A stretch of DNA of 64,000 nucleotides, from the NCBI GenBank assembly GCA_029006155.1, contig JAQXGF010000069.1, positions 1-64,000 of the forward strand, read 5' to 3'. Under the pieces are notes generated by a model. It was not told where the DNA came from. It did no database searches and was given only the letters and a program-made list of their open reading frames with translations. This DNA is from Lachnospiraceae bacterium (GTDB lineage: Bacteria; Bacillota; Clostridia; Lachnospirales; Lachnospiraceae). This document shows positions 57,103 through 61,052 of this stretch, in pieces. The translations under genes were made by a program, and so were the position numbers. Each line of letters starts with the position of its first letter. Position 1 is the first letter of the stretch.

Positions 57103-57214
57103 CCGAATCAAGCAAGTCCCCTGCTTCAATTGCGCAAAGCAATAAACAGGGGGCTTGCTTGTATCAGGAGTGGTACAAGCCACTCCTGATAAGCTGCGAA
57201 GCAGCTATTCGGTT
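57101..57214 (+). other. Branched RNA/DNA element: one outer stem, three hairpins
   Basis: AACCGAAT (57101-57108) pairs perfectly with ATTCGGTT (57207-57214). Inside are three hairpins in a row: AAGCAAGTCCCCTG/CAGGGGGCTTGCTT (57110-57123/57147-57160), ATCAGGAGTGG/CCACTCCTGAT (57163-57173/57180-57190) and AGCTGC-GAA-GCAGCT (57192-57206). The outer stem starts inside the stop codon of the U32-like gene. The first hairpin is terminator-like but without a U-tract. Confidence 0.75.
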
Positions 57215-57219
57215 ATGAG

Positions 57220-57250
57220 CAAGTAGCGAAGCGGATTGCGAATATCCGTT
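57220..57250 (+). repeat. Dispersed intergenic repeat, copy 3
   Basis: CAAGTAGCGAAGC followed directly by GATTGCGAATATCCG-type sequence repeats the first and last blocks of 11058-11143, here without the middle block. A diverged GATTGCAAATATTCGCT occurs at 48452-48468. Confidence 0.65.
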
Positions 57251-57272
57251 TAACCAGATCAGCAGAATTTTG

Positions 57273-57301
57273 TTGACAATCGGGTCTATATTTGATAATA
57301 T
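57273..57301 (+). promoter_or_regulatory. Promoter of the Mn riboswitch operon
   Basis: TTGACA (57273-57278), 17 bases, TAATAT (57296-57301). Transcription would start near 57308, just ahead of the aptamer. Confidence 0.8.
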
Positions 57302-57314
57302 CTATCAAGTAATT

Positions 57315-57416
57315 GAATATTCCATGAGGGAGTAGTTAGCACGGACGTGTGATTTGTCAACATTCTGATTATAAAAGAGAGTATAATCTGGCAAATCTTA
57401 AATAATGAGACTCATG
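57315..57416 (+). ncRNA. Mn2+ riboswitch (yybP-ykoY family)
   Basis: The conserved core is present: GGGAGTAG (57328-57335) and GTCAACATTCTG (57356-57367), joined by a small hairpin CACG-GA-CGTG (57340-57349). A GATTATA/TATAATC hairpin (57367-57388) forms the second arm, and ATGAGAC leads to the closing strand. P1 is CATGAG (57323-57328) with CTCATG (57411-57416). This family binds Mn2+ where the two arms dock. It precedes a CaCA exchanger and a GDT1-family transporter, the classic target set. Confidence 0.9.
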
Positions 57417-57480
57417 TATATCGATGAATTGCCTGTGTAGGATACATTGGCGGATCGTTGATATACATGAGTCTTTTTTT
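57409..57480 (+). terminator. Riboswitch-controlled terminator
   Basis: GACTCATGTATATC (57409-57422) pairs perfectly over 14 bases with GATATACATGAGTC (57460-57473), followed by seven T's. The left arm includes CTCATG, the 3' strand of aptamer P1, so aptamer and terminator are mutually exclusive: Mn2+ binding should hold P1 and allow read-through. Confidence 0.9.
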
Positions 57481-57553
57481 ACCCGCCGGGTATACTTGTA
57501 ACAGCGGATGTTCGGCTGACGATACGGTTATGGAGGACGAAAAGGAGGAAGGT

Positions 57554-58555
57554 ATGGAGAATTTTATTAACAACGCCCCATTTGCGCTCGTACTTGTATT
57601 TCTTATAATCGGCTTTGTGCTGCTTATAAAAGGTGCGGACTTTTTTGTAGAGGGAAGCTCAAGTGTGGCAAAGCGACTGCATGTTCCTGCTATTATTATC
57701 GGACTTACCATTGTGGCAATGGGAACATCTCTTCCAGAGACGGCAGTCAGTGTATCGGCTGCGCTTACCGGTAATAATGAACTTGCGGTAAGTAATGTGG
57801 TTGGTTCCAACATATTCAATCTCATGGTTGTCATTGGCGTGTGTGCAATGATTGCCACCGTAAATGTCGCAAAGGAAACAGTAAAGAGAGATATTCCGTT
57901 TTCGCTTGTCTGTGCAGGGCTTTTGCTGCTTTTGGGGATTGCCGGATTTGGTGATAAGGCAGGCATGACACTTGGACATCTTGATGGGGTGATATTCCTG
58001 GGGGCATTTGCGGGATATATTTTCTACATGATTAAGATTGCATTAAAGGCGAGTAAAGAAGGGAAGAAGGTGGAGATAGAAGGTGGTTCCGAGGAAGAGA
58101 TCAAGTTGATTTCCGTGCCGCTGAGCATTCTGTTCATTCTTGGAGGGGCCCTTGCGATTGCGATTGGCGGGGATGTGACGGTAGATGCCGCATCGAGAAT
58201 CGCCAGTGACCTTGGAATGAGCCAGACACTGATCGGACTTACCATCGTCTCGATCGGAACTTCCCTTCCGGAACTGGTGACTTCCATCGTTGCAGCCAGA
58301 AAGAATGAGGTCGATATGGCACTTGGCAATGCGATTGGGTCCAATGTATTTAATATACTTATGGTACTTGGTATTGCATCTGCGATCAGCCCAATCAGCA
58401 TAATTACAGAAAATATCATTGATTTGTGCGTACTGATTGCATTTACTGTGTGCGTGTGGATCTTTGCCGGTACCAGAAAGAAAATCGGAAAAATCGAGGG
58501 ATTCTGCATGGTTGCACTTTATGCGGCATATGCGGCTTACATCATCATAAGATAA
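57554..58555 (+). CDS. CaCA-family cation exchanger (YrbG-like)
   Basis: The ATG at 57554 behind AAAGGAGGAAG gives 333 residues in two inverted five-helix halves, each with the alpha-repeat motifs: GTSLPETAVS with GSNIFNLMVV, and GTSLPELVTS with GSNVFNILMV. The family exchanges Na+ or H+ for Ca2+, and some members export Mn2+. Control by a Mn riboswitch points to Mn2+ or Ca2+/Mn2+ export here. GDT1 follows after 16 bases. Confidence 0.92.
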   Translation: MENFINNAPFALVLVFLIIGFVLLIKGADFFVEGSSSVAKRLHVPAIIIGLTIVAMGTSLPETAVSVSAALTGNNELAVSNVVGSNIFNLMVVIGVCAMIATVNVAKETVKRDIPFSLVCAGLLLLLGIAGFGDKAGMTLGHLDGVIFLGAFAGYIFYMIKIALKASKEGKKVEIEGGSEEEIKLISVPLSILFILGGALAIAIGGDVTVDAASRIASDLGMSQTLIGLTIVSIGTSLPELVTSIVAARKNEVDMALGNAIGSNVFNILMVLGIASAISPISIITENIIDLCVLIAFTVCVWIFAGTRKKIGKIEGFCMVALYAAYAAYIIIR

Positions 58556-58571
58556 AGTAGAAATCAGGACT

Positions 58572-59258
58572 ATGTTACTGTTTTTAAAGGTATTTTTTAC
58601 GGAATTTATAGCAGAGATGGGCGATAAAACACAGCTCATGCTGATCGCACTTACTTCGAAATACAAGTTAAAAGACATTATATTAGGGACGGCTGCCGCA
58701 ATCCTTGTACTGAATGGACTGGCCGTCCTTGCAGGCGGACTGGTCAGCGAATTCATTCCGGACTGGCTCATTAAGACAATCGCAGCTCTGGCATTTCTCT
58801 ATTTTGCAGCCTCTACGATTGCCGGCGAGGATGACGAGGAAGAAGAAGAAGGCGGCAAAACAAAAATCAAGTTCGCGCCACTTGCCGTTTTCTGCACCTT
58901 TTTCGTAGCAGAGCTTGGCGATAAGACACAGCTTACCGCGATCACATTTGCTGCAAATGAAGGTATGGCATCCGCATTTGTCGTATGGATCGGATGCTCC
59001 CTCGGACTTTTCGCGGCGGATATCCTTGGAATGCTGGTCGGCTATCTTTTAAAGAGCAAGACCCCAGAGGGACTGCTGAACACGCTTGCATTTGTAATAT
59101 TCTCCATCTTTGGCGTATATACCCTTTATCAGGGACTGAAGCTGATCAGCGCAGGTGTCTGTCCGATCCCGGTATGGCCGATACTGATCGTTGCGACGGT
59201 TGCTTTTGCTGCTTTGTGTGTCTGTCTTTTTATGAGAAGAGAAAAGAAAGCGAAATAA
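58572..59258 (+). CDS. GDT1/TMEM165 (UPF0016) family Mn2+ transporter
   Basis: Two copies of the E-x-G-D-K-(T/S) motif, EMGDKTQL near residue 16 and ELGDKTQL near 116, lie in two three-helix halves separated by an acidic loop EDDEEEEEGG. Bacterial members such as MneA/Mnx export Mn2+ and the motif binds the ion. It is the second gene under the Mn riboswitch. The ribosome site is weak (AGGA close to the ATG), so coupling to the upstream gene is likely. Confidence 0.93.
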   Translation: MLLFLKVFFTEFIAEMGDKTQLMLIALTSKYKLKDIILGTAAAILVLNGLAVLAGGLVSEFIPDWLIKTIAALAFLYFAASTIAGEDDEEEEEGGKTKIKFAPLAVFCTFFVAELGDKTQLTAITFAANEGMASAFVVWIGCSLGLFAADILGMLVGYLLKSKTPEGLLNTLAFVIFSIFGVYTLYQGLKLISAGVCPIPVWPILIVATVAFAALCVCLFMRREKKAK

Positions 59259-59354
59259 ATTTTTTCAATTATGGCATGGATCTTTTTATGACGGAATGGT
59301 ACAATAAAAAGTAACAAAATGGCAGATCCATAAGTGAAGAAAGGAAGCAAGCTC

Positions 59355-61052
59355 ATGAAATCAGTAATTTCCATTGGAAATCAGGATTTTGTATCCATTC
59401 GAAAAAATGACTGCTTTTATATCGATAAGACAGATTTTATCAGAGAATGGTGGGACAATCAGGACAGTGTTACCTTAATTACCCGTCCGAGAAGATTTGG
59501 CAAGACCTTGAATATGAGTACGGTGGAATATTTCTTTTCCATGAATCATTCAGAATGCAGCCAATATTTTGAAGGTCTGGCCATCTGGAAAGAAGAAAGA
59601 TTTCGTAAGCTTCAGGGAACATATCCGGTCATTTCCATTAGCTTTGCCGATATTAAGGCAACCACGTATGAGTCTGCAAGAAGGGCGGTTATCCGTAAGC
59701 TGGTGCGGTTATACAGTACATTCGAATTTATAAAATCCAGCACCGTATTGAATGAAAAAGACCGCGCATATTTCGATTCGGTTGAAGAAGAGATGTCGGA
59801 TGATGCAGCAGCAGTGGCGGTCAATTATATGTCGGATTATTTAAGCCGTTATTATGGAAAAAAGGTGATTATCCTTCTGGATGAGTATGATACCCCTTTA
59901 CAGGAAGCCTATATTCATGGGTATTGGGAGAAGCTTACGGCATTTATCCGAAGTCTGTTCAATTCCACATTTAAAACGAATCCATATATGGAACGGGGTC
60001 TGCTGACCGGAATTACGAGAGTCAGTAAAGAATCCATCTTTTCTGATCTGAATAATCTTGAGGTTGTAACAACAACATCCGAAAAGTACAGCAGCTCTTT
60101 TGGGTTCACAGAAGAAGAGGTTTTCCATGTGCTGGAAGAAAATGGCCTGTCCAAGGAAAAGGGAAACGTCTGCTACTGGTATGATGGATTTTCCTTCGGA
60201 AAACGGAAAGATATTTACAATCCATGGTCCATCACAAAATATCTGGATACAGGGGAATATGGAACTTATTGGGCAGACACCAGCGGAAATATGCTGATTT
60301 CCAATCTGATTCGTCAAAGTCCGGCGAAGATCAAGTCAGAGATGGAAGATTTAATAAATGGTGGCGTGATCCGCACAGAACTGGATGAACAGGTCATCTT
60401 TGAGCAGCTTGGAAGAAAGCGGGGCGCCATCTGGAGTCTTATGCTTGCCAGCGGTTATCTGAAAGTTGACCGATACGAGATGGACAACAGGACCGGAAAA
60501 CGTCAGTATGATCTGAAAGTTACCAATCACGAGACGATGCTGATGTTCGAGAAAATGATAGAGGACTGGTTCACAGAAGAGGAATCTGCATATGGTGATT
60601 TTAAAGATGCTCTGCTTGCAGGGGATCTGGATTATATGAACCAGTTTATGAATCAGATAGCGCTTCAGACATTCAGCAGTTTTGATGCGGGTGGAAAGCC
60701 GTCAGAGGAGCTCGAACCAGAAAGGTTTTACCACGGATTTGTTCTTGGACTGATTGTTGATTTGTCTGGAAAATACAGAATCACATCCAACAGGGAAAGT
60801 GGCTTTGGACGTTATGATGTAGTAATGGAACCATTGAAAGAACATCTGGATGCGATCATAATGGAGTTCAAAGTTCAGAACACCGCAAAAGAAAAGTCAT
60901 TGGAGCAGACCATGGAGAATGCACTGCATCAAATTCAGGAGAAACAATATGATGCAGAATTACTCGCCAGAGGAATCGCAAAGGAACGAATCAGACATTA
61001 TGGCTTTGCGTTTCGTGGAAAGAAAGTGCTGATTGGGTCGGATGCCGGATGA
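59355..61052 (+). CDS. AAA-ATPase-like / PD-(D/E)XK nuclease protein (PF09820 type)
   Basis: The ATG at 59355 with AAAGGAAG upstream starts MKSVISIGNQDFVSIRKNDCFYIDKT, the family hallmark. An AAA-like domain follows with TRPRRFGKTLNMS as P-loop and VIILLDEYDTPL as Walker B; the C-terminus has GRYDVVMEP...IIMEFKV, the catalytic core of a PD-(D/E)XK nuclease. These proteins occur in many paralogous copies in gut Clostridia and Bacteroidetes; the role is unproven, with defence or mobile-DNA roles suggested. It is more AT-rich than its neighbours. Confidence 0.88.
   Translation: MKSVISIGNQDFVSIRKNDCFYIDKTDFIREWWDNQDSVTLITRPRRFGKTLNMSTVEYFFSMNHSECSQYFEGLAIWKEERFRKLQGTYPVISISFADIKATTYESARRAVIRKLVRLYSTFEFIKSSTVLNEKDRAYFDSVEEEMSDDAAAVAVNYMSDYLSRYYGKKVIILLDEYDTPLQEAYIHGYWEKLTAFIRSLFNSTFKTNPYMERGLLTGITRVSKESIFSDLNNLEVVTTTSEKYSSSFGFTEEEVFHVLEENGLSKEKGNVCYWYDGFSFGKRKDIYNPWSITKYLDTGEYGTYWADTSGNMLISNLIRQSPAKIKSEMEDLINGGVIRTELDEQVIFEQLGRKRGAIWSLMLASGYLKVDRYEMDNRTGKRQYDLKVTNHETMLMFEKMIEDWFTEEESAYGDFKDALLAGDLDYMNQFMNQIALQTFSSFDAGGKPSEELEPERFYHGFVLGLIVDLSGKYRITSNRESGFGRYDVVMEPLKEHLDAIIMEFKVQNTAKEKSLEQTMENALHQIQEKQYDAELLARGIAKERIRHYGFAFRGKKVLIGSDAG

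Follow-up and report, generated by a model that had tools for sequence, protein, structure and literature searches.

A probable yybP-ykoY-type Mn2+ riboswitch with a P4-less three-way junction upstream of a CaCA-GDT1 operon in a Lachnospiraceae bacterium

The leader and its operon

The window analyzed here is a 64,000-nucleotide stretch of DNA from a Lachnospiraceae bacterium. On its forward strand, a promoter is followed by a structured leader and by the genes of two antiporters, a CaCA-family protein and a GDT1/UPF0016 protein. CaCA and GDT1 proteins are antiporters that are usually called calcium transporters. The features of the locus are the following (A2 is an alignment of 100 related elements, and R1 a model trained on relatives of the leader).

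57273..57301, + strand: sigma-70-type promoter read from the sequence, TTGACA (57273-57278), 17 nt, TAATAT (57296-57301)
57318..57418, + strand: aptamer, with the extent of its match to model R1 (95.0 bits; the 26 training sequences include the window)
57323..57328, + strand: 5' strand of P1.1, CATGAG, pairing with 57411-57416; the helix covaries in A2
57329..57334, + strand: 5' side of L1, GGAGTA, facing GAGA at 57407-57410; with the preceding G it reads GGGAGTA
57335..57338, + strand: 5' strand of P1.2, pairing with 57403-57406
57339..57350, + strand: P2 hairpin, 57339-57342 with 57347-57350, from the fold and the alignments
57351..57397, + strand: P3 arm, with P3.1 formed by 57351-57356 and 57392-57397
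57357-57366 facing 57389-57391, + strand: L3 in the P3 arm
57367-57373 with 57382-57388, + strand: P3.2 in the P3 arm, from the single-sequence fold
57398..57402, + strand: five-base linker UUAAA in place of helix P4 of the four-way junction
57407..57410, + strand: 3' side of L1, GAGA, giving GAGAC as in the L1/P1.1 strand of X. oryzae
57411..57416, + strand: 3' strand of P1.1, CTCATG, common to the left arm of the terminator
57408..57480, + strand: intrinsic terminator, arms 57408-57439 and 57443-57474, T7 at 57474-57480
57543..57548, + strand: ribosome-binding site AGGAGG, by eye
57554..58555, + strand: CaCA-family antiporter, 333 aa (PF01699, TIGR00367)
58572..59258, + strand: GDT1/UPF0016 divalent cation antiporter, 228 aa (PF01169), 16 nt after the CaCA gene

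Direct reading of the sequence places promoter, aptamer core and terminator where a preliminary description of this DNA had put them. A promoter scan returned 2 promoter-like sites compared to 1.4 in shuffles, and on its own the window promoter is weak evidence; hexamers resembling -35 and -10 boxes were also seen by eye 5' of the element in two relatives (L002 and L005). The terminator had been described as 14 pairs followed by seven T's. The perfect 14 bp, in which GACTCATGTATATC (57409-57422) pairs with GATATACATGAGTC (57460-57473), and the seven T (57474-57480) could be confirmed, but the hairpin is in fact longer, with extended arms (57408-57439 and 57443-57474) that are 78% complementary. 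A simple terminator scan reported no terminator in the window leader, because its loop limit shuts out so long a hairpin. Rfam matches to mir-1277, mir-242 and similar families were taken as artefacts of this long hairpin and rejected.

The 178-nt leader folds with -63.5 kcal/mol compared to -35.9 +/- 3.7 for 200 shuffles (z -7.46), none of which was as good. Folded by itself, the aptamer reaches a z of -1.21 and 27 of the 200 shuffles do as well. The fold excess of the leader thus comes mostly from the terminator, and since the aptamer is energetically unremarkable, its identification rests on features other than folding energy.

The CaCA protein scores 240.1 bits with TIGR00367 (curated cut-off 179.65) and carries two GTSLPE repeats, and the GDT1 protein matches PF01169 in two stretches with 123.4 bits (cut-off 27) and contains EMGDKT and ELGDKT in its translation; both therefore belong to their families. 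A search for a solved relative of the GDT1 protein by sequence gave none at E <= 0.01. The gene that follows the operon (59334-61052) encodes an AAA-ATPase-like/PDDEXK_9 protein (PF09820, PF08011), by annotation unrelated to metal transport.

Conservation of the aptamer and its place in the riboswitch family

A blastn search with positions 57300-57490 matched 64 of 150 genomes of the same family, the window's own included (E <= 0.1), and the motif order GGGAGTA..TCAACA..GAGAC was present in 28 of the 30 best loci. Twenty-six of these 28, without two long elements (L028 and L030), constitute alignment A1. MAFFT alignment and RNAalifold gave P1.1, P1.2, P2 and P3.1 arranged around L1 and L3, with P4 absent. 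Model R1 then matched 92 of 150 genomes of the same family and 120 of 391 of the same class (both at E <= 0.01) and 38 of 398 of the same phylum (E <= 0.001), each tally including the window's own genome. These tallies are lower bounds, as one genome (G110) was missed at first although a direct search gave 40.5 and 49.8 bits for its two elements. From the 115 counted family places 110 were fetched, the window and the training loci among them, and the five weakest were left out. A pattern scan of named contigs gave at least 119 further places, 118 of which R1 agrees with, and these may overlap with the other genome sample.

Covariation was found for P1.1, P1.2, P2 and P3.1 in both alignments. 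In A2, which is fitted to R1, 96.2% of the cells are paired and 18 of the 22 pairs show double changes, compared to at most 49.1% and 10 pairs in controls with slid partners. The unfitted MAFFT alignment A1 gave 97.5% paired cells and double changes at 11 of 22 pairs (slid controls at most 53.5% and 6). The P1 helix CATGAG/CTCATG of the preliminary description, here P1.1, is thereby upheld by sequence and covariation alike. The unpaired bases are conserved as well. GGGAGTA occurs in 98 of the 100 places aligned in A2 and GAGA, on the 3' side of L1 and adjoining P1.1, in 95. L3 lies within GTCAACATTCTG (57356-57367) and reads GTCAACA in the window; among relatives it varies somewhat (ATCGACA and others). 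The adenosine in this UCAACA context would be the Mn-binding one. When R1 was run over 10 kb around E. coli mntP, the mntP leader was the sole match (21.3 bits, E 2.9e-4), in an alignment that covers GGGGAGUAG and GUCAACAUACU, the latter opposite L3.

A P4 helix was found neither in the window nor in the 26 sequences of A1, where a five-base linker takes its place, and the window aptamer therefore lacks the four-way junction with P4 seen in the yybP-ykoY crystal structures. At the P4 site of A2 the linker has five or six bases in 99 of 100 sequences and seven in one, in an alignment fitted to a P4-less model that favours short linkers; in L139, a row that stems from the L030 place, a hairpin lies beyond the part that was fitted. 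By eye, L150-L152 combine a P4-like hairpin with the L1, L3 and terminator described here, and so do seven Clostridia places with weak RF00080 matches (L305, L308, L311, L312, L317, L320 and L324). P4 is a variable module. It was not treated as defining, because Clostridia with and without the P4-like hairpin share the other features and because the streptococcal mgtA riboswitch is itself described as a three-way junction. As judged from sequence, the aptamer is a P4-less three-way-junction form, and this form is not new in kind.

The check named at the outset, whose failure was to count as refutation, was a match to the Rfam yybP-ykoY covariance model, RF00080, and it failed: with gathering and permissive thresholds no match was obtained in the window leader, even at E <= 10, and none anywhere in the window's own genome (E <= 10) or in 20 related loci. 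The missing match is not decisive, because P1 pairs are lacking from the model and even the known E. coli mntP switch stays below its cut-off (41.6 bits; cut-off 45). The printed alignment of RF00080 pairs three hairpins, read as P2, P3 and P4, and expects a long P4 loop. Searches under Infernal's stricter filters, with which some weak matches are lost, yielded matches in 16 of 150 same-family genomes (E <= 1) and in 37 of 391 same-class genomes (E <= 0.01), and in neither set did a single genome exceed the cut-off; it was passed in 2 genomes of a 14-genome control. As no same-class genome passes and P1 is absent from the model, the missing match in the window is attributed to the model; the 45-bit gathering cut-off belongs to the database and is no property of the RNA. 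Of the weak RF00080 matches, 8 of 17 in the family and 17 of 40 in the class fall on R1 places. This coincidence, the L1 and L3 cores and the match of R1 to E. coli mntP support the assignment to the yybP-ykoY family made in the preliminary description.

A second Rfam family, SSRC10 (RF02617), touches the same leaders. The window scores 23.1 bits with it, below the cut-off of 56. The SSRC10 model matches several leaders end to end, over aptamer and terminator, with 46.0 bits at best, and its matches among relatives include L014, G038:C9 and G099:C6. All 33 same-family places at E <= 0.1 lie under the cut-off; 17 of them coincide with R1, and the eight others that were fetched all score with R1 (24.4 to 49.8 bits). 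L3 of SSRC10 reads CGUCAAUACGG in place of GUCAACAUUCUG in the window. SSRC10 looks like a relative of these leaders and may be a Mn2+/Ca2+ riboswitch. It is filed as a Streptococcus sRNA, and in a table of its source it is flanked by a hypothetical gene, SPyM3_0439, and by SPyM3_0440, a putative calcium transporter, with the two genes on the given strand (PMC3675131). According to the same source it was detected with a complementary-strand probe, and candidates immediately upstream of genes had been removed (PMC3675131). Taken literally, this speaks against a leader role of SSRC10 in S. pyogenes and weakens its reading as the terminated leader of mgtA, so that the kinship is a lead.

The window's own genome contains a second element of this kind (G000:C30:40367-40471, minus strand; L365), which scores 27.5 bits with R1 and 25.9 bits with SSRC10. 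It has an SSRC10-like L3 (CGTCAGTACGG), GAGAC and an overlapping terminator of its own, precedes an OadB-like membrane protein gene and follows a cation-diffusion-facilitator-like gene (both by eye). Window 57105-57251 and L365 709-861 are copies of one repeat (about 150 nt, 92% identity); the former immediately precedes the window riboswitch, and the latter immediately follows the terminator of the second element. The window copy overlaps a weak match to Clostridiales-1 RNA (15.1 bits).

Target genes, switching and the sensed metal

Next to the 110 family places the first gene encodes MntP (63), a P-type ATPase (20), a CaCA protein (12, of which four are distant at 51-145 bits), an ABC ATPase (7), MgtE (1), GDT1 (1) or another protein (6), so that one of the six named types follows in 104 of 110. 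The 118 named-contig places gave MntP 83, P-type ATPase 12, GDT1 5, CaCA 3, ABC 3, other 7 and contig end 5. The element is thus associated with Mn2+ homeostasis genes, and the next-gene counts bear out the exporter-type targets anticipated earlier. The order RNA, CaCA, GDT1 is found in the window genome, in G102 and G118 and on two named contigs, L275 and L261 (Lachnospiraceae bacterium), some of which may be the same organisms; L275 is 81% identical to the window over 1970 bases of DNA. These closest named relatives point to a Lachnospiraceae origin of the window.

Other neighbours were also noted. The ABC-transporter ATPases at L064, L077, L084, L085, L088, L118 and L143 (7/110; 3/118 in the named set) belong to one cluster, and to our knowledge they are no standard Mn2+ target. 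OadB-like genes, of the sodium-pump decarboxylase beta subunit type by eye, come next in L125, L200, L237 and G000:C30, and one target counted as other, in Raoultibacter (L219), appears TerC-like by eye.

The preliminary description had the terminator reuse the 3' strand of P1, and this stands in the sequence, where CTCATG is both the P1.1 3' strand and part of the terminator left arm. Of 106 scorable places (4 of 110 were unscorable), 70 have a terminator of at least 9 pairs that begins within P1.1, compared to 2 to 13 when the DNA downstream was put through ten single-base shuffles, a control that is easy to beat because such shuffles also disrupt T runs. In the remaining 36 scorable places a 9-pair overlapping terminator was not seen by the simple scan. 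Competition between the two helices is predicted from this overlap, whose recurrence across relatives suggests that metal most likely switches the operon ON. The polarity proposed at the outset, in which metal holds P1, blocks the terminator and turns the genes on, fits this comparative evidence.

The following course of events is proposed. At high Mn2+, and possibly also high Ca2+, an ion would bridge L1 and L3, whereupon the two arms would dock and P1.1 would be stabilized. With P1.1 formed, CTCATG would not be free to begin the terminator and polymerase would read through, leading to synthesis of the CaCA and GDT1 antiporters and to export of the metal. At low metal the terminator would form and the operon would be off.

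Whether the CaCA protein carries Mn is addressed by linkage and by precedent. In 150 same-family genomes, 20 of 98 CaCA genes have an R1 match at most 2.5 kb upstream and the majority, 78, are unlinked, which is a point against the overall explanation, in a count that leaves out five partial rows and for which R1 places were entered only for relevant contigs. Linkage was found for 13 of 19 genes at 55% or more identity to the window protein and for 7 of 79 below (Fisher p 2.4e-7, in a test that ignores shared ancestry). A 21st CaCA gene (G071) stands behind an SSRC10-type element, and near the unlinked gene of highest identity (G138, 69%) R1 finds nothing. No difference in the ion-binding repeats was seen between RNA-linked and unlinked CaCA proteins, in a comparison where 7 of 30 loci gave no frame bearing both motifs, and specificity can therefore not be read from the sequence. 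For MntP, the window genome (89.7% complete) and G118 give a weak match only (30.2 bits; family cut-off 24.4) and G102 gives none; strong MntP is present in 8 of the 9 other RNA-CaCA genomes tested, the exception being G006, which is 67% complete.

A Bordetella CaCA protein controlled by a Mn2+-responsive yybP-ykoY riboswitch is reported to lower cell Mn (PMC8546581) and is listed among Mn exporters (PMC9936198), and of 333 screened bacteria that possess UPF0016/GDT1, 328 are reported to have it under this riboswitch (PMC7380456). By analogy, the CaCA protein is plausible as a Mn2+ exporter, and because of both precedents Mn export by the CaCA-GDT1 operon appears likely; Ca2+ may possibly be carried as well. 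The earlier suggestion that the CaCA protein is a likely Mn2+ or Mn2+/Ca2+ exporter thus stands as plausible, but its repeats, the same as in unlinked proteins, do not add to it.

Taken as a whole, positions 57318-57480 very probably hold a yybP-ykoY-type Mn2+ riboswitch with a P4-less three-way junction and a transcription-termination platform. An attenuator or terminator alone, with no metal-binding aptamer, would agree with a fold that is mostly terminator, but it can hardly be reconciled with helices that covary upstream of the terminator and with unpaired L1 and L3 bases that are near-invariant in 100 aligned places. Somewhat less remote, and still improbable, is a riboswitch-like leader for another metal or ligand that has only the core in common with yybP-ykoY: the absent RF00080 match and some targets odd for Mn2+ (the ABC ATPases and OadB-like genes) would suit it, but the L1 and L3 cores are retained, Mn exporter families dominate the targets and R1 recognizes E. 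coli mntP.

A stronger contender, though on balance we doubt it, concerns the ion itself: the RNA could be primarily a Ca2+ sensor or a dual Mn2+/Ca2+ sensor whose operon exports both, the three-way form marking a Ca2+/Mn2+ branch. The streptococcal mgtA aptamer is reported to form its three-way junction with Ca2+ or Mn2+ and to have a higher affinity for Ca2+ (PMC9495176), and Mn/Ca2+ sensing by this riboswitch is also described elsewhere (PMC11434433). The 20 P-type ATPases among the 110 family targets, which look Ca-type by sequence reading, and the 12 CaCA proteins point the same way. Against this, the commonest target in both samples is MntP, a dedicated Mn exporter family, and streptococcal mgtA transcription is reported to be activated more by Mn2+ (PMC9495176). 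The sensing of Mn2+ claimed in the preliminary description fits family and targets, but since the streptococcal three-way member binds Ca2+ too, 'Mn2+' may have to read 'Mn2+/Ca2+'.

Returning to the Mn2+ riboswitch, a wider proposal can be put forward tentatively. The P4-less form could be the dominant Mn2+/Ca2+ sensor of Clostridia, mostly missed by the standard model and with its own regulon of CaCA-GDT1, P-type ATPase, ABC and OadB-like genes, and in the lineage of the window export could proceed without an ordinary MntP, Mn2+ or Ca2+ prompting CaCA and GDT1 to clear both ions together.

Comparison with known systems

The kind of system described here is already known; the present analysis adds an account of the standard model's failure, the P4-less form with its spread in Clostridia and a likely kinship with SSRC10. 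A literature search for Lachnospiraceae together with 'manganese riboswitch' found nothing that joins them. With P1 omitted from the library model, a metal riboswitch that is widespread seems to be annotated too rarely in a major bacterial class. The P4-less members offer a ready set for studying the selection of Mn2+ over Ca2+ by a three-way junction.

Among solved CaCA proteins the closest is NCX_Mj (MJ0091), which has both GTSLPE repeats and matches over nearly the whole length (E about 5e-36). In the second repeat the window protein has Asn (GSNVFNI) where the alignment shows Asp in NCX_Mj (GSNIADI), a residue that we take to be an ion ligand.

The four-way yybP-ykoY riboswitches (L. lactis yoaB, X. 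oryzae; RF00080 'Manganese') have in common with the window L1 (GGGAGUA/GAGA), L3 UCAACA and helices P1.1, P1.2, P2 and P3, as well as the P1.1 switch helix set against a terminator and Mn exporter targets. They possess P4, in contrast to the window with its UUAAA linker and lack of an RF00080 match. In X. oryzae, the 12 nt formed by the 3' half of L1 plus P1.1 are reported to start GAGACC, and the switching step is described as stabilization of P1.1 against the terminator (PMC6754395); the window counterpart of this strand is GAGACTCATG. Switching between P1.1 and terminator is likewise reported for L. lactis (PMC11087558).

By description, the streptococcal mgtA riboswitch is like the window a three-way junction, a transcriptional ON switch and upstream of a Mn2+/Ca2+ efflux target, which in Streptococcus is a P-type ATPase in contrast to the CaCA-GDT1 pair (PMC9495176). 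The Bordetella BP3410 leader resembles the window in that a yybP-ykoY riboswitch, there responsive to Mn2+, controls a CaCA protein; it is detected by Rfam, belongs to a different bacterial phylum and, in the part of the source available, goes without mention of a GDT1 partner (PMC8546581). Bordetella with a working CaCA protein is reported to contain about 5-fold less Mn by ICP-MS, and Clostridia would join it as evidence that some 'calcium' CaCA antiporters export Mn (PMC8546581).
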